A stretch of 64,000 nt of DNA from Tetramitus jugosus (Eukaryota; Heterolobosea; Eutetramitea; Acrasida; Vahlkampfiidae), in contig OW569351.1 in assembly GCA_937625935.1 (NCBI GenBank), positions 580,260-644,259 on the forward strand. The letters are read 5' to 3'. The position numbers and the translations under genes are program-made. Shown here piece by piece: positions 30,244 through 36,943 of the stretch. A model generated the notes under the pieces. The model did no database searches. It was not told where the DNA came from and saw nothing but the letters and a program-made list of their open reading frames with translations. Every line of letters begins with the position of its first letter. Within the stretch, counting starts at the first letter, position 1.

Positions 30244-30259
30244 TTAAGGATGTAGTTCG
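30244..30259 (+). repeat. Left arm of 16-bp inverted repeat
   Basis: ttaaggatgtagttcg, a perfect reverse complement of 33908-33923. It lies between the RCC1 start and a TATA-like stretch (tataaatag, near 30273). Confidence 0.7.
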
Positions 30260-30340
30260 TTGGACCTCAACGTATAAATAGAACTCTACCTATAAATTTT
30301 TTTGGGCACGACACCCAATCACAAACACAAACTTACGATC

Positions 30341-30508
30341 ATGGTTGCCACATCTCATCAATGGTTCTGTTCCGGCTGTGGTTCCGTCTCAGCCAAGAGT
30401 ATTATAATGAATACTGCCTCATGGTTCTGCCCAGGATGCGGTCAAGTACTGGTTGATTCAACAAGCAATCAAAACAGGCACAAAAAATTTCCTTTGCAAT
30501 TTGCACGG
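30341..30508 (+). CDS. Small double zinc-ribbon protein, possibly first exon only
   Basis: From an ATG at 30341, two CxxC pairs are read: WFCSGCGSVSAKS and WFCPGCGQVLVDS, a short zinc-ribbon pair. The frame ends at a stop just after FPLQFAR. The sequence there (CACG|GTAAGC) is a good splice donor on this strand, so this may be exon 1 of a longer gene. TATA-like sequences lie 45-70 bases upstream. It overlaps the 3' end of the antisense F-box ORF by about 50 bases, so at least one boundary is probably wrong. Function is unknown. Confidence 0.45.
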
Positions 30509-30799
30509 TAAGCCTGACTTGCAAACGGCCAAACAGTGTGAGTACAAATTGTCCATATAAGACCTTATTGTTGATAGATTATTGACTATCGAAGATCGAA
30601 AATCCCGACACGTCAATACCAAATTCAACACATCTTCTACACCAAGGAACGAACCAACTAGATACACAAATAAATCAATATGTATATCGGTTATTCTTAC
30701 TTTTCTTTTGACTCCAAACTTTACCAATTGTTGGTGTTGGTTATGTCTTCTTTTGGCGCCTTTTCCTTGTTTTCCCATTTGTTCATTGATTTTTTTCAT
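30458..30799 (-). CDS. Small F-box protein
   Basis: 113 residues from the ATG at 30799; an earlier in-frame ATG at 30913 adds a hydrophobic stretch that looks non-coding. A basic N-terminus (KQGKGAKRRHNQHQQ) is followed at about 36-75 by an F-box (ITDIHIDLFVYLVGSFLGVE, then VLNLVLTCRDFRSSI). No substrate-binding domain is seen, and the C-terminus may be altered by splicing. It lies inside the inverted-repeat-bounded segment. A role as Skp1 adaptor is inferred from the F-box alone. Confidence 0.5.
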   Translation of the reverse strand: MKKINEQMGKQGKGAKRRHNQHQQLVKFGVKRKVRITDIHIDLFVYLVGSFLGVEDVLNLVLTCRDFRSSIVNNLSTIRSYMDNLYSHCLAVCKSGLPCKLQRKFFVPVLIAC

Positions 30800-30928
30800 C
30801 ACTTGCAAAAAACAGAAAACAAATACTCTGAAGGACATCGTGAATGCGAGTGACCTGATGATGAGTATGAGTTTTCTGATGTTTGTCAAATTCTGTCCTA
30901 CTATTGATACCATTAGAGAGGTGTTGAA

Positions 30929-31564
30929 TTGTCCGATAACTTGAGTATTCAGATCTCATTGATGACACTTGCTCTTCAAACATATCCTGATAACACTGAC
31001 TATGTCAACAAGATTATTAATAACATTGCTAGTCAATTGAATAGCACTGCACTTGCTTCAGATGAAATTGTAGAGATGTTGAAGCGATTGTTGTTGGTGC
31101 CACTCGAGTCATACAACAATGTGCTAACAGTTTTGAAGTTGGAGAAGTATGGTGATATTATTCATTCTCTTGGATATGAACAGAGAAAGTTTATTGCACT
31201 GAGCATTGTGAGATGCGCACTTGACAATGGACACAAGATTTCAACATTTGAACAAGTGAACAAACTGTTTGATTTGATTCGTCCACTGTTGAAGGATGAG
31301 GAAGACCAAACAACATTCTCACCTTCTGACGACTCACCAATAGCTGCAACATTGCTCGAAGATTTCGAAGAAGAACAGAACTTGATTGCCAGATTGGTTC
31401 ATTTGTTTGATAATAGCGATACTGATCAATTGTTTAAAGTTTTGGCCGCAGCCAGAAAGCACTTTGGTCAGGGTGGTGTCAAGAGAATTCAATACACATT
31501 GGTACCGCTTGTATTCTCCTACTTGAAACTTGCTCAGAGAATCTACAATGCACACTGCAAATAG
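30929..31564 (+). pseudogene. VPS35: Orphan internal fragment of retromer subunit VPS35
   Basis: About 211 codons match only the middle of VPS35. Recognisable blocks are LSIQISLMTLALQTYPDNTD, PLESYNNVLTVLKLEKYGDI, LGYEQRKFIALSIVRCALDN, EQNLIARLVHLF and KVLAAARKHFGQGGVKRIQY, ending LVFSYLKLAQRIYNAHCK and a stop. In full VPS35 (about 750-800 residues) these correspond to roughly residues 375-585, so both the N-terminal VPS26-binding half and the C-terminal VPS29-binding end are missing. Upstream in frame there is a TAG at 30914-30916 and no VPS35-like sequence. The frame is open and uninterrupted, so the copy may be recent or still expressed. A full VPS35 gene should exist elsewhere. Confidence 0.8.
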
Positions 31565-31920
31565 ACACCTCTTGTCGACTCTCCATCTTTTTTGATTGAT
31601 TTGGTTGTTGTTGTTGTTGTTGATGTTCGTTGTGCGACTTGTGTTTTTCGTTGTTGTTGTTGTCGTGTCAGAGAGAAAGTTTTTCGTTGTCTTTCGTTTG
31701 GTTCAAGATTGGATAGATAGGTGGATATATTATAAAAAAATACAATAAATGTTGTATCAGTTTCCTCTAAGCTGCGGAATTGGTGCAGTTGTAAAAATTT
31801 CCGTTGAGACTGTCTTTACAACGACAACGGCCATCTACCTCGGTTTAAAAAGCGCTGTCTTTTTCGCTGTTTGATTCAACTCACACAACAAACACAACAC
31901 ACAACAAATACAATAACATT
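31565..31920. promoter_or_regulatory. Intergenic region upstream of the Fanzor gene
   Basis: 356 bases with a GTT/TTG microsatellite near 31602-31665 and an A-rich stretch near 31735. The 60 bases before the Fanzor ATG are CA-rich (repeated acaaca), resembling a 5' leader. No gene was recognised. It probably holds the Fanzor promoter and perhaps the left end of the element. Confidence 0.4.
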
Positions 31921-33834
31921 ATGCCACGAGGCGTGCCTAAGGACGGCAAGAGAAAGAGAAAGAGAGAGACTGTCAAAAAGAATGAATACTCATCACATTA
32001 CGTGGTCAAGGTCGGTCTGAAGTCTCTGTTGTTGCATCATCCAACTCTGTTACCAATCATACAGACTCAAGCTCTGGAGATTACAAGGATTGCTCTTCGA
32101 CTCACAAGATTTATAAACATATTCGTTTTGAGGCACTTGGAGTCTGACTATCAAATCCCTTTATTAGATCAAGTGTTTCTTCAAAGATTAGGTTCTGTGT
32201 TGTTTGGACGCAATTCAAAACCAAGAGACAATAACTTAAGTCTCATCAACGAGTCTGTCAACATGGACGATGTAGTAGTCAAACTCAGAAAGATTTATCA
32301 GAGTTTTGCCACGTCCATCAATTATGTTGCCAGGTCTCTCAATGTCAACATCTCCAACATGCTCAAGTTCACATTGGAACCAAGACTGAGGAAGTATCTG
32401 AGGGTCAGAATGAATCAACTACACAGTGACTCATCTATTCCAAAGTCAGAACAAAGAAGGGTTGTTGAATACATTATCAGAAGGTTGACATTTAGCACTC
32501 CTGTCCACGATTTTATCAAATTGCCTCCAAAAGAGTTGATAGAGACGATTCCTGTGTTGATCCGAGAGGTTCGAACACTTGTTGATGCTAAAACTGATGA
32601 AGTAATTGATGAATCATTTGTGAAGAACAACACCAATAACATGCTGAAGTTTTACTGGCATGTTCAACAATTTCTGATCAACAATGATATGAAATCGTTT
32701 GCACTACTTCCTTTGTCTCATTTCAAGTGCAGGTGTATGGAGATTGGCACAAAGGAATTAGTTGATATGCTTAAACAGAAGAAACAAGGAAGACAAAAGA
32801 AGGGCGAGGAGTCAACTGAATTGAAGTGTAATCTCAAGTGTTTGAATGTTGGAACAAAGAAGATTCAAATCGACTCTATCAGAACTGACGGTATTCAGGC
32901 CTCTGTTGTTCTCAGACATCAACTCATTGGCAATCACAAGAACAATAAGGCAAAGGAATCCAAGGGCCAGAAAGAAGCAAAGAAGAGAAAGAAAGAAACA
33001 AGTATGAACGAAGGTGCTGAATATTTGGTTGGGATTGACCCGGGTATTGTTACGTTGGTGAGTTGTGCAGATTCAGATGGCAAGAAGTGGGAGTTTTCTA
33101 ACAAAACATATAGACATCTGTCCCACCATTCAAAAAACTCCAAGCGATTGCTGAAATACAAAGCAGAATGGAACGAAATGAATGAGAAGAACTTGGATGA
33201 ACTCCAAAACTCAATCAAACAGGCCGGTGTACCAACAAGTGGTCTGTTCCTTGAACACATCAATTCTGTGTTGAAAGTCGAGGATGATTTGTTGAATTTT
33301 TATTGCACCCCAAAGGTGAAGAGACTGAATTGGGATAGCTATATAATGAGAGATAAGACGATTGCCAATGTTATGAATGACTTTCGAAAGAGAGCAAATG
33401 GAAGAAGCATGTTAATTGGGATGGGCAATGCTGGTTTTGGTCATTGTTACAAAGGACATGCTCCAACACCAAAAGGAAAGCTATTGAAAAAGTTGAATGA
33501 GCACTTCAAAGTGAAAATGATCGACGAGTTCATGACAAGTCAGAAATGTCATCATTGCCATTCTCACATGAAGCCAGTCAAGCATAAGAGAATAGACAAG
33601 AATGGAACGTTGAATGTCTCTGTCGTCCGAGGAGTTAAACAGTGTGCAACCACTAAATGTTTAGTGACTCACAACAGAGACATCAATGCGGCCAAGAACA
33701 TGCTCCATCTACTGAGAACAGAAATGGATGGACAGTCACGTCCCGATGCCTTCAAGAGGAAGAAAAAGGTCGCAAAAGAATTAATCAAAATGGTGGAACA
33801 CCTCCAAGGCTCACTCCATCAAGCTGCTATGTAA
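31921..33834 (+). CDS. Fanzor, eukaryotic TnpB-like RNA-guided RuvC endonuclease
   Basis: 637 residues. A basic N-terminus (KDGKRKRKRETVKKN) is followed by a helical recognition region and then the RuvC-like nuclease. The first catalytic Asp is Asp373 in YLVGIDPGIVTLVSC. No Glu is seen at the canonical RuvC-II place; the likely replacement is Glu536 in MIDEFMTSQKCHHC. The last Asp is Asp587 in VTHNRDINAAKNML. A TnpB-type zinc finger uses Cys543, Cys546, Cys575 and Cys580. A relocated Glu before the TSxxC motif is known for Fanzor proteins. The family cuts DNA using an RNA made from the 3' end of the gene and element. All key residues are present and the frame is uninterrupted, so the protein may be active. 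Confidence 0.9.
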   Translation: MPRGVPKDGKRKRKRETVKKNEYSSHYVVKVGLKSLLLHHPTLLPIIQTQALEITRIALRLTRFINIFVLRHLESDYQIPLLDQVFLQRLGSVLFGRNSKPRDNNLSLINESVNMDDVVVKLRKIYQSFATSINYVARSLNVNISNMLKFTLEPRLRKYLRVRMNQLHSDSSIPKSEQRRVVEYIIRRLTFSTPVHDFIKLPPKELIETIPVLIREVRTLVDAKTDEVIDESFVKNNTNNMLKFYWHVQQFLINNDMKSFALLPLSHFKCRCMEIGTKELVDMLKQKKQGRQKKGEESTELKCNLKCLNVGTKKIQIDSIRTDGIQASVVLRHQLIGNHKNNKAKESKGQKEAKKRKKETSMNEGAEYLVGIDPGIVTLVSCADSDGKKWEFSNKTYRHLSHHSKNSKRLLKYKAEWNEMNEKNLDELQNSIKQAGVPTSGLFLEHINSVLKVEDDLLNFYCTPKVKRLNWDSYIMRDKTIANVMNDFRKRANGRSMLIGMGNAGFGHCYKGHAPTPKGKLLKKLNEHFKVKMIDEFMTSQKCHHCHSHMKPVKHKRIDKNGTLNVSVVRGVKQCATTKCLVTHNRDINAAKNMLHLLRTEMDGQSRPDAFKRKKKVAKELIKMVEHLQGSLHQAAM

Positions 33835-33925
33835 GTCCCGATTATGTAGGAGCGTTAAGGTGTCTTCTCGGGAAATCATAATTTTTTTATTATGGGTTTT
33901 ATTTCACCGAACTACATCCTTAAGG
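33832..33925 (+). ncRNA. Candidate guide-RNA scaffold (fRNA/omegaRNA) at the Fanzor 3' end
   Basis: Directly after the Fanzor stop lie two potential stems. TCCCGA (33836-33841) can pair with TCGGGA (33868-33873), and CATAAT (33877-33882) with ATTATG (33889-33894) around a T6 loop. The inverted repeat arm follows at 33908. Fanzor and TnpB guide scaffolds usually come from this position and may reach back into the ORF. The stems are seen; the RNA itself is inferred. Confidence 0.4.
33908..33923 (-). repeat. Right arm of 16-bp inverted repeat
   Basis: Reverse complement of 30244-30259, 74 bases past the Fanzor stop codon. The partly palindromic ccttaagg at its outer end recurs loosely as ttaaggtg at 33857 and 37217. 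Confidence 0.7.
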
Positions 33926-34009
33926 TGTGATGTGTTCATTTTATCGGCTTTGTAGCCAACCAGTGGTCAAAAAGCGGAACAACAGGAAACATTCACGAGT
34001 TCGATCATT

Positions 34010-34524: not shown

Positions 34525-35592
34525 TCACTCAGCAGCTCTATTTACTATTAGTAGATCAGAAGCACCATCTCCACCTCCACCCCACCCAAATTTTTGAGTA
34601 ATATCGGACAAGGGTGTTCTCTCTTTTGAAGGTTGTACAGTCGACCTTCTAATCTCTTTGTTAATATTCTGAAGATGCTTCCATGCATCACTCATGTACA
34701 TTCTCTGACGCCAATCAGTAATCATACAGCCTCCAATTATCGCTTTTAGGTGATTGAAGCAAGGAGCATATTCTTCACCAAAAACTGAACTAAAGGTTTC
34801 GTATGCCTCATTCATGTATTTGGATATCATACTATGGCACTTTTGGTTTTCGATAGTGTTTGTGACAGGCTGAATGAAGCATTCATCCCCTGTCAACATC
34901 AATTTTAGATAATGGGCAAATAAAACACCAATCGAAAAGATATCCATGGCTGTATTGATAAGAAAATCGTCCCCACATACAAATGGTCGTGTTCTTCCAA
35001 TAGTACCCGTTATTGAATGAGTCAATGAGTAGCTGCAATTCATATCGATAATAACAGCATCATGCAATTCAAAGTCATTTTCCACAACTATGTTCGATTT
35101 TCTGAACATGACGTTCCAAATCGATAGGTCACCATGAATAATAGTCTTCCTATGCAATTCCTTTACACCTTTCATTATTCCAATCATTAGGTGACAAAGG
35201 ATTTTCAATTTAGATCCCCCTGAAAGTTTTTGAATCTTACTGTAACTCAAATATTGGTCAAAGGGTACAAGTGTTTCTGTAACTGTTAAGTAGCACATTT
35301 TCCAGTATTTCACTTGTATTTCACTCTCCATTTTAGTTTTCCACTCAATAGGTGCCTTATTCACTCGTTCATGTTTCAAAATTTGAACCAAATTCATATG
35401 TTTCGGCACTTCACTCATTACTTTCTCTTCATCAACTGTTCCAATTGAAAGTTTCACAAACACTGGATATTGTGTTGATTGTGATTTTTGAGAGATAAAA
35501 GCAAAGCATTTGCTATTGTGCATCAACTCTCTGTTAATCGTAAATCCTAGCTCCAGTACAATCTCTGCCATTGATGAACAGTAATTCGTCAT
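34525..35592 (-). CDS. Divergent protein kinase, overlapping the upstream gene by ATGA
   Basis: 355 residues from the ATG at 35592, or 348 from a second ATG at 35571 (MAEIVLELGF). Kinase motifs are a Lys in YPVFVKLSIG, the catalytic loop IIHGDLSIWNVMF (Asp and Asn kept, HRD changed to HGD), and VIIDMNCSYS in place of DFG. A C-lobe Asp lies in AMDIFSIGVLFAHYL. The C-terminal tail is glycine-rich. The first ATG overlaps the stop of the neighbouring upstream gene (ATGA), which is unusual for a eukaryote. Either the start at 35571 is used, or both ORFs belong to one gene broken by a frameshift. The catalytic residues suggest possible activity. Confidence 0.7.
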   Translation of the reverse strand: MTNYCSSMAEIVLELGFTINRELMHNSKCFAFISQKSQSTQYPVFVKLSIGTVDEEKVMSEVPKHMNLVQILKHERVNKAPIEWKTKMESEIQVKYWKMCYLTVTETLVPFDQYLSYSKIQKLSGGSKLKILCHLMIGIMKGVKELHRKTIIHGDLSIWNVMFRKSNIVVENDFELHDAVIIDMNCSYSLTHSITGTIGRTRPFVCGDDFLINTAMDIFSIGVLFAHYLKLMLTGDECFIQPVTNTIENQKCHSMISKYMNEAYETFSSVFGEEYAPCFNHLKAIIGGCMITDWRQRMYMSDAWKHLQNINKEIRRSTVQPSKERTPLSDITQKFGWGGGGDGASDLLIVNRAAE

Positions 35593-35654
35593 GAGATTTC
35601 TTGAGGAGCTTGAGGACGATGTAGAACCCCTATCTCTTTGCCCTTATATCCCTT
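35568..35654. repeat. 87-bp direct repeat, copy 1
   Basis: Nearly identical to 36835-36924. It covers the last codons of the 395-residue gene and the start of the kinase gene. A 3-base length difference lies in a ctct run. Both copies begin ccattgatgaaca and end cccttatatccctt. Confidence 0.9.
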
Positions 35655-36831
35655 GTTGTTACGACTGGAAGAATTATCTTTGTTGTTCTTTCGTTGACGA
35701 TAGTCATTGTTGTCATTTTCATCATTATTTTCATTATTGTTGTCATCACTATCATCATTATTGAGGTAATCCTGCTTGTTGTACGTTAATTCAAATCTTT
35801 TTTCAAAGATTCCGTGCCTAAGAGTTCCTTTTCTAACATGACAGCCATACTGGTCTCTCCAAATGAGATCAACTTCACAATTTCTTGCTCCCGAGAGAAT
35901 ATGCAATTGACTGTCTTGTTGGATAAAACCTAGAGAGCGTTTCGCTATTACTAGGGAAGTCAATAATCTATCTTGCAACTGTTGACTCATTTCCTCAGTT
36001 GTCATATCGACATCTAGTTGTCTCATAATTCTATGAACATTCGAAAATATCTTCATATCAATTTCTGGTAACTCTACACAGCATTTTTTGAGAGCAGCAC
36101 CACAAGCGAACATGTCGGTCACTATTTCACACTTTACAACAGATGTGGTAAGCTTCAGTTTTTTGGGTGTTTCTTGGATGAGTGTCTCTTCTTTTTTCTT
36201 TGGTTCCGGTGTTCTTGGGATCAAATCATCTGATGATCGCTCGGATGTTTCCTCTTGTTTCTTGAGAGGTGTATCATCATACTTAATCAACCAAGAATTT
36301 AGAAATTGTTCTAATGGTTGTGGCAAGGCAGGAATGTCAGCATTATGAACGACAACATCATTCTTGTGTTTCCCCCAAATTGGTTTGTTCAGTCGAAATT
36401 GCAGTTCAGCTGCCAAACCTCTTATCAATTCCACTTCATCAGAAAGTGTTCCTTGTGTCTCTAGCTTTTTAGTTACTTGGTTAATCTTTCTTAACAGCCT
36501 GGAGACCTCCTCGCTGTTGATCGTCCCACTTGATGAAACATGTTCTTGGATCCTATTGTTGATGTACTCTTCTTCATCTTCACTGCCACCACTGGGCTGA
36601 TAATTTTGGTCCTTCGAATCATCTGCTGGTTCTTCCTCTCTTTCATCTTCAGTCTTGTTCTTCTTGTTTGGATGACCTGAAGTACGTATTAGATGGCAGA
36701 GCACAGAGAAAAAAAACTGAACAATTCATACCATTTGCTTCAGCATCACGAACCCTCTTTCCATTCCTCAGCATTTTTTTCTTGTCCGTTAGGTCTTTTC
36801 GCGGGAAGGAAACAGCATCAAGCGAACCCAT
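35589..36831 (-). CDS. Acidic nuclear-type protein of unknown function, two exons
   Basis: Exon 1 is 36831-36732 and exon 2 is 36676-35589, joined by a 55-nt intron (AATG|GTATGA donor, TTCAG acceptor) into one 395-residue frame starting MGSLDAVSFPRKDLTDKK. A charged N-terminus with repeated KK/DE runs suggests nuclear location. Two predicted helical parts follow (INSEEVSRLLRKINQVTKKL; MTTEEMSQQLQDRLLTSLVI). Then comes a segment ending ARNCEVDLIWRDQYGCHVRK, and an Asn/Asp-rich tail. The EVDLIW segment could be a remnant of a PD-(D/E)XK nuclease strand, but the ExK half is not seen. Its stop overlaps the kinase ATG. The tail coding sequence is duplicated 5' of this gene. Confidence 0.6.
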
Positions 36832-36834
36832 GAA

Positions 36835-36924
36835 CCATTGATGAACAATAATTCGTCATGAGATTTCTTGAGGAGCTTGAGGACGATGTAGAACCCCATC
36901 TCTCTCTTTGCCCTTATATCCCTT
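36835..36924. repeat. 90-bp direct repeat, copy 2
   Basis: Matches 35568-35654 with a 3-base insertion and a few substitutions. It sits immediately 5' of the MGSLDAV start codon, just as copy 1 sits immediately 5' of the kinase start MAEIVLEL. Confidence 0.9.
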
Positions 36925-36943
36925 CTTTCTTTGAAGGCTGGTC

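Follow-up and report, generated by a model that had tools for sequence, protein, structure and literature searches.

A Fanzor1 nuclease in a TTAA-type transposon of Tetramitus jugosus, and scars that may record RNA-guided cutting of its empty sites

A predicted Fanzor1 gene in a TTAA-type transposon

The window analyzed here is a stretch of 64,000 nucleotides from Tetramitus jugosus (contig OW569351.1). It holds a 3.7-kb element, bounded by TTAA and inverted repeats, that carries a Fanzor gene and a segment of a host gene. Its features, in window coordinates, are as follows.

30244-33923, + strand: whole transposon, including both TTAA target-site duplications (TSDs), with class A ends; from terminal inverted repeat (TIR) pattern matches and boundaries against other copies
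30244-30263, + strand: left TTAA and left TIR, TTAAGGATGTAGTTCGTTGG; from the TIR pattern and copy comparison
30877-31564, + strand: captured segment of the host Vps35 gene, with a 211-aa open frame at 30929-31564 (Pfam Vps35, 1.4e-44)
31921-33834, + strand: Fanzor1 ORF, 637 aa, with catalytic D373, E536 and D587 and zinc finger C543, C546, C575 and C580
33854-33923, + strand: predicted omegaRNA terminal hairpin, in which TTAAGG (33855-33860) pairs with CCTTAA (33918-33923); from folds and z-scores
33908-33923, - strand: right TIR and right TTAA; from the TIR pattern and copy comparison
33924-33945, + strand: predicted guide, the host DNA right after TTAA, which varies among copies; from where the hairpin ends and how the scars are built

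The frame at 31921-33834 on the + strand runs for 637 codons with no stop. A sequence-only reading of the window had claimed as much, and had placed Asp373, Glu536, Asp587 and a four-cysteine zinc finger within it; these positions proved correct, and the three acidic residues align exactly with the triad of SpuFz1, the Fanzor1 of Spizellomyces punctatus. The protein has a Cas12f1-like TNB zinc-finger domain (Pfam E 7e-10, above the cut-off). A single-sequence search of the PDB matched it to SpuFz1 (8gkh) at E 1.9e-13, and a six-sequence profile found SpuFz1 again at E 4.2e-22 over profile positions 128-616 (489 positions). SpuFz1 was the sole strong PDB match in these sequence and profile searches; GtFz1, the Fanzor1 of Guillardia theta, was not among the matches. 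In the alignment to 8gkh, D373, E536 and D587 correspond to chain residues D777, E935 and D1000, which a chain offset of 394, counted by hand, turns into SpuFz1 D383, E541 and D606. These are named as catalytic residues in PMC11423790.

Two published signatures can be read from the same frame. The Fanzor-wide pattern D-X(125,275)-[TS][TS]-X-X-C4 zinc finger-X(5,50)-RD (PMC3627910) appears as D373, T539 S540, C543/C546/C575/C580 and R586 D587. According to PMC10711439, DPG together with E-alt, a glutamate six residues upstream of the zinc finger, parts Fanzors from most TnpBs; the window protein reads IDPG at 372-375 and has E536, six residues and then C543. The sequence-only reading was right about where this glutamate sits; as E-alt with DPG is a published Fanzor signature, the position of E536 is expected and ordinary. 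Both motifs are invariant across five aligned homologues. The search for public protein homologues returned 5, from 7998 candidates scored, and among viral contigs 86 stretches fitted the pattern used to look for relatives, with 0 confirmed. The NCBIfam model IS607_TnpB scored 16.5 bits against a cut-off of 350. By these sequence criteria the window protein belongs to Fanzor1 and sits in a eukaryotic TIR transposon, not in IS607, an assignment that draws on the PDB matches, the TIR/TSD element and the IS607_TnpB score. With triad and zinc finger intact, the window copy is predicted to encode an RNA-guided double-strand DNA nuclease.

We then consider the ends of the element. A 16-nt terminal repeat pattern, TTAAGGATGTAGTTCG, occurs at 19 exact places genome-wide, and its reversed control at 0. 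For the window copy the pattern matches at C8:610503 (+) and C8:614167-614182 (-), corresponding to window positions 30244 and 33923. The inverted-repeat arm that the sequence-only reading noticed in the 3′ flank is real: 33908-33923 is TIR plus TTAA, with matching sequence at 30244. That reading had held that its idea would fail were there no other copies with conserved ends, and had proposed comparing genomic copies to fix the element's limits. The 19 places supply such copies, and the comparison puts the ends at the TTAA of 30244-30247 and the TTAA of 33920-33923. The sequence-only reading had missed the full extent of the element, its TTAA duplications, its multiplicity, the Vps35 segment and the scars described below.

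There are three TIR classes. A second end class, TTAAGGTGGCGGTC, was found at 34 places genome-wide (control, 0), and four long copies have a variant, TTAAGGTGGCCGTC, as their left end. When right ends were sought without requiring TTAA, it followed 31 of 32 of them; the exception, L014, has TTGG and was excluded from the right-end set. Both ends were recognized in 19/36 right-end copies, using patterns that include TTAA. The reading frames of four reference elements include no evident transposase. Elsewhere in the genome PF13843 matches 12 times; in the four of these loci that were fetched, neither TTAAGG nor matching ends occur. We classify the element as a Fanzor1 in a TTAA-type transposon with TTAA target duplications, as in piggyBac or another TTAA superfamily. 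In the available text of PMC3627910, a TTAA transposon is not among the Fanzor hosts and the word TTAA was not found.

Copies in the genome

We searched 26.3 Mb of genome in 56 contigs. The window Fanzor protein matches 66 stretches and its TNB domain matches 27; element copies number in the dozens. From the fetched loci we extracted 19 near-full-length open Fanzor frames, each of 628-649 aa. DPG and HNRD are present in all 19. A pattern search found E-alt in 17, and the remaining two (L023, L024) carry it in the printed sequence. In all 15 pairs computed, picked from these 19 open frames, dN/dS was 0.14-0.30, and the Fanzor protein is therefore maintained under strong purifying selection.

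End class and Fanzor lineage disagree at two loci. L011 has class A ends, yet its Fanzor is 97.0% identical to that of class B L008 and 91.1% identical to that of the window; L006 has class B ends, yet its Fanzor is 97.6% identical to that of the window. This disagreement indicates that ends were swapped between element families. The L044 Fanzor is 42-44% identical to that of the window.

A predicted guide RNA at the right end

The sequence-only reading had proposed a structured 3′ flank with a candidate guide RNA, and the flank is indeed structured. The segment 33854-33924 folds at -17.4 kcal/mol (z -3.72), with 1 of 200 shuffles equally good. Single-sequence folds of the hairpin segment for five end types gave z values of -3.72 (window), -2.78, -2.90, -4.06 and -1.38, the last of them (L053) weak. 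An internal GTTAAGG lies about 65 nt before the right TTAA in 30/36 right-end tails and is kept in L044 and L053 despite their diverged Fanzors; in the six tails where it is absent, the region is deleted, changed or truncated. In the best fold, this arm pairs with the end repeat and TTAA in 22 of the 30 tails that have it, and the other 8, mostly class B, fold otherwise. The folds make the right end a plausible guide-RNA region, and in most tails TIR and TSD would be omegaRNA scaffold, not guide. Because the hairpin pairs TIR plus TTAA with the internal TTAAGG, the window copy's guide would be expected to begin at 33924.

We also considered the TIR itself as the guide, which would aim the Fanzor at transposon ends. 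We rejected this candidate, as the TIR can pair with the internal TTAAGG arm, kept even beside the L044 Fanzor, and as the scars described below contain flanking host DNA. The six tails without the arm and the eight arm-bearing tails that fold otherwise count against the rejection.

The right TTAA directly precedes the predicted guide, so a nuclease whose TAM is TTAA only would cut the occupied locus it comes from. The two sides differ in the base before TTAA. On the left it is A/T in 26/27 sites (22 complete left ends and 5 scar sites); on the right, read as the reverse complement, it is A/T in 20/36 (p = 0.0004). With the scar sites dropped, the left count is 21/22 (p = 0.001). The A/T background in the window is 61%. 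CC precedes the right TTAA in 32/32 right ends, the end motif searched itself containing CC. We hypothesize that the TAM is WTTAA, which would spare the occupied copy. The A/T preference could instead reflect an orientation bias of the transposase.

Scars at broken left junctions

Seventeen of the 36 right-end copies lack a recognized left end. We left out L051, which retains its left end with a small deletion, so that the class comprises 16 copies. Five of these 16 carry, at the broken left junction, TTAA followed by a 9-22-nt copy of the sequence that flanks their own right end. The repeated flank is 20 nt long in L041 (2 mismatches), 22 nt in L042 (one 1-nt gap), 11 nt in L054, 9 nt in L018, where the element has lost no more than the initial 43 bp of its left end, and 12 nt in the C3 copy (L060+L017), where 6 nt of filler follow. 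The joins of L041, L042, L054 and L018 show 1-3 nt of microhomology. At the 3′ junction, all five scarred copies have the exact DNA-transposon end and TTAA, with no poly(A). The other 11 copies have no scar. Two out-of-sample right ends, L070 and L071, found later by DNA similarity, have none either (0/2), which brings the overall count to 5/18.

As a control, we compared each left side with the flank of every other locus. An exact prefix of at least 12 nt was seen in 0 of 1260 swapped pairs, and one pair reached 11. Own-flank pairs reached at least 12 nt in 6/36 cases, including the C2a copy, which is not counted as a scar. The window copy has both ends and no scar; its 11-nt own-flank match lies about 5 kb away and is at the level that one control pair also reached. 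The control is strong, and we regard the scars, present at five loci in one genome, as suggestive. In a literature search, none of the papers listed, judged mainly by title and the start of the abstract, described such scars, which does not establish their absence from print.

Two further copies deserve description. In the C2a copy (L007+L057), a 13-nt match to its own guide was rejected as a scar, as it lies inside element sequence and not at the junction. These first 13 nt of its own TTAA and guide, within its own element, form a possible self-target and may be due to chance. In L070 (C11:254153), a truncated right end, about 18 nt separate a TTAA on the left from the broken junction, and these nucleotides are unlike its own guide.

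How the scars may have formed

We propose that the element is a TTAA-type DNA transposon, non-autonomous, which carries a working Fanzor1 nuclease and its guide RNA as cargo, and that it is mobilized in trans by a putative TTAA-specific transposase. Upon insertion, TTAA would complete the right-end hairpin, and the host DNA past TTAA would become the guide. The Fanzor RNP would then recognize (W)TTAA and guide at the empty site, on the allele or sister chromatid that lacks the element, and, judging from the scars, would cut it within about 22 nt downstream of TTAA. The occupied copy would be spared by the C before TTAA at its right end. Repair of the cut empty site would copy the element back, with the occupied homologue as template. 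Where this copying, begun from the right, halts early and end joining follows, the product would read left flank, TTAA, 9-22 nt of guide, truncated element, right end, TTAA, guide. On the occupied chromosome, the guide lies only to the right of the element, and the TTAA and guide at the left would therefore come from the empty chromosome. A break 9-22 nt past TTAA, with copying from the right and end joining at the left, would thus give the scar order that is observed.

The proposal in its entirety, from the TTAA transposon and its Fanzor1 cargo to the empty-site cut and the partial copy-back scars, is in our judgment probable, with moderate confidence. For the narrower statement that the truncated copies are fossil records of a Fanzor in its own host, cutting empty sites under RNA guidance while the transposon is copied from the occupied chromosome, we see slightly better than even chances. 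Were this true, the scars would read out the TAM (W/TTAA), the guide start and the cut position straight from the genome. SpuFz1 is reported to cut 16-17 nt from the TAM on the non-target strand and 20-21 nt from it on the target strand, and the cuts of four assayed Fanzors fall between 9 and 21 nt from the TAM (PMC10432273). The upper limit of the scars, near 22 nt, agrees with these published positions.

We think it unlikely that the element is an ordinary mobile Fanzor1 with a functional protein whose scars arose with no RNA-guided cut, by aberrant one-ended transposition. In such an event, the right end would join TTAA and the other side would be captured at a nearby break by microhomology. 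In its favor, each of the five scars sits at TTAA in a copy anchored by its right end and comes with microhomology or filler, and complete copies show clear transposase-like insertion at TTAA. What one-ended transposition leaves unexplained is the second break. DDE-type insertion makes two strand joins spaced by the 4-bp TSD, and a break 9-22 bp away therefore does not follow from it. Nor did inspection by eye show the mirror case, in which left-flank repeats would stand beside truncated copies anchored by the left end (0/2; L036 and L038). No coding frame runs across the junctions of these two copies, so the mirror prediction of the cut is uninformative there.

That the Fanzor is kept for some other role, such as regulating or attacking related transposons, with site maintenance as a side effect, strikes us as improbable. 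It would then chiefly target the end sequences of the three TIR classes, and since near-identical Fanzors are found with different end classes, guides or scaffolds could act across families. However, in most tails the hairpin and the kept GTTAAGG arm assign the TIR to the scaffold and not to the guide, and the same placement is predicted for the Fanzor1 reRNAs of ascovirus and other insect viruses (PMC10711439). Finally, we give almost no credence to the 5′-truncated copies being retrotransposed, LINE-like transcripts with 13-26-bp target duplications: LINE insertions do share features with them, namely truncation at the 5′ end, short duplications and microhomology or filler, but the five 3′ ends are exact DNA-transposon ends followed by TTAA and not poly(A), which makes such an origin implausible, a transcript would be expected to bring the guide of its source locus beyond the end, and complete copies are bounded by TIRs and 4-bp duplications of TTAA.

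Relation to known systems

Copying of the element into a cut empty site, the reading we prefer, has a counterpart in the logic proposed for TnpB of IS200/IS605, in which the nuclease cuts the empty site and homologous recombination refills it (PMC10432273, PMC11870625). That system is bacterial, with a single-strand transposase and no TSD, whereas the window holds a eukaryotic TTAA element. SpuFz1 shares the E-alt / RD triad with the window Fanzor and likewise resides in a multicopy element, flanked by inverted repeats between which no transposase was found (PMC10432273). Its right-end repeat is part of the omegaRNA according to the same source, as is predicted for the window element. SpuFz1 differs in reading DPN in place of DPG and in its CA/CATA context in place of TTAA target duplications. 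The window family further differs in its three end classes, its captured host gene segments and its candidate copy-back scars, of which the available account of SpuFz1 in PMC10432273 makes no mention.

The TAM of GtFz1, given as TTAAN or TTAA (PMC10432273, PMC11423790), matches the target duplication of the window element in these four bases, and any base change in this TTAA abolished GtFz1 cutting (PMC11423790). The GtFz1 locus is reported to be seemingly without inverted repeats or a clear transposase (PMC10432273), whereas the window element has inverted repeats. For the Fanzor1 elements of SfAV and other insect viruses, the reRNA scaffold is predicted to include TIR and TSD, as in the window element; the reRNA extends about 15 nt past the TSD, and the SfAV element is non-autonomous (PMC10711439). 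These elements are of an unknown transposon family and have a different host, and the portion of PMC10711439 available to us does not mention repair scars.

Fanzor1 as a kind is already known, and the element is a variant of it; it is the scars that set this case apart from a routine Fanzor. The biological role of Fanzors is stated to be unknown, with TnpB-like propagation only speculated, in the text available from PMC10432273. If the truncated copies are indeed fossil records of empty-site cutting, they would give Fanzors this missing role. Guide-length duplications at the predicted cut site in broken copies would make the role testable without genetics, and the same scar can be searched for in any genome with multicopy Fanzor elements. 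The present genome also offers a Fanzor1 naturally associated with TTAA, in many intact copies, along with end exchange between transposon families.

Captured host sequence and neighboring features

Upstream of the Fanzor frame, the Vps35 segment of the window copy is 98.5% identical in DNA to the host gene at G000:C22:83284 (L049) over 681 bp. Six of 200 codons differ between the two, five of them silently, and the segment is probably a recent capture. Its protein has 26 matching stretches genome-wide, the host gene included. Other host-like fragments are also found in long copies. The C34 copy (L006+L056) and the C26 copy (L059+L015) differ in the mosaic of host-like fragments that they hold upstream of the Fanzor, and in the C34 copy the Vps35 tail reaches the native stop codon.

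To the right of the element, beside a kinase-like gene, two direct repeats of about 93 bp (35568-35657 and 36835-36927), 93.5% identical, bracket an open frame at 35589-36704.
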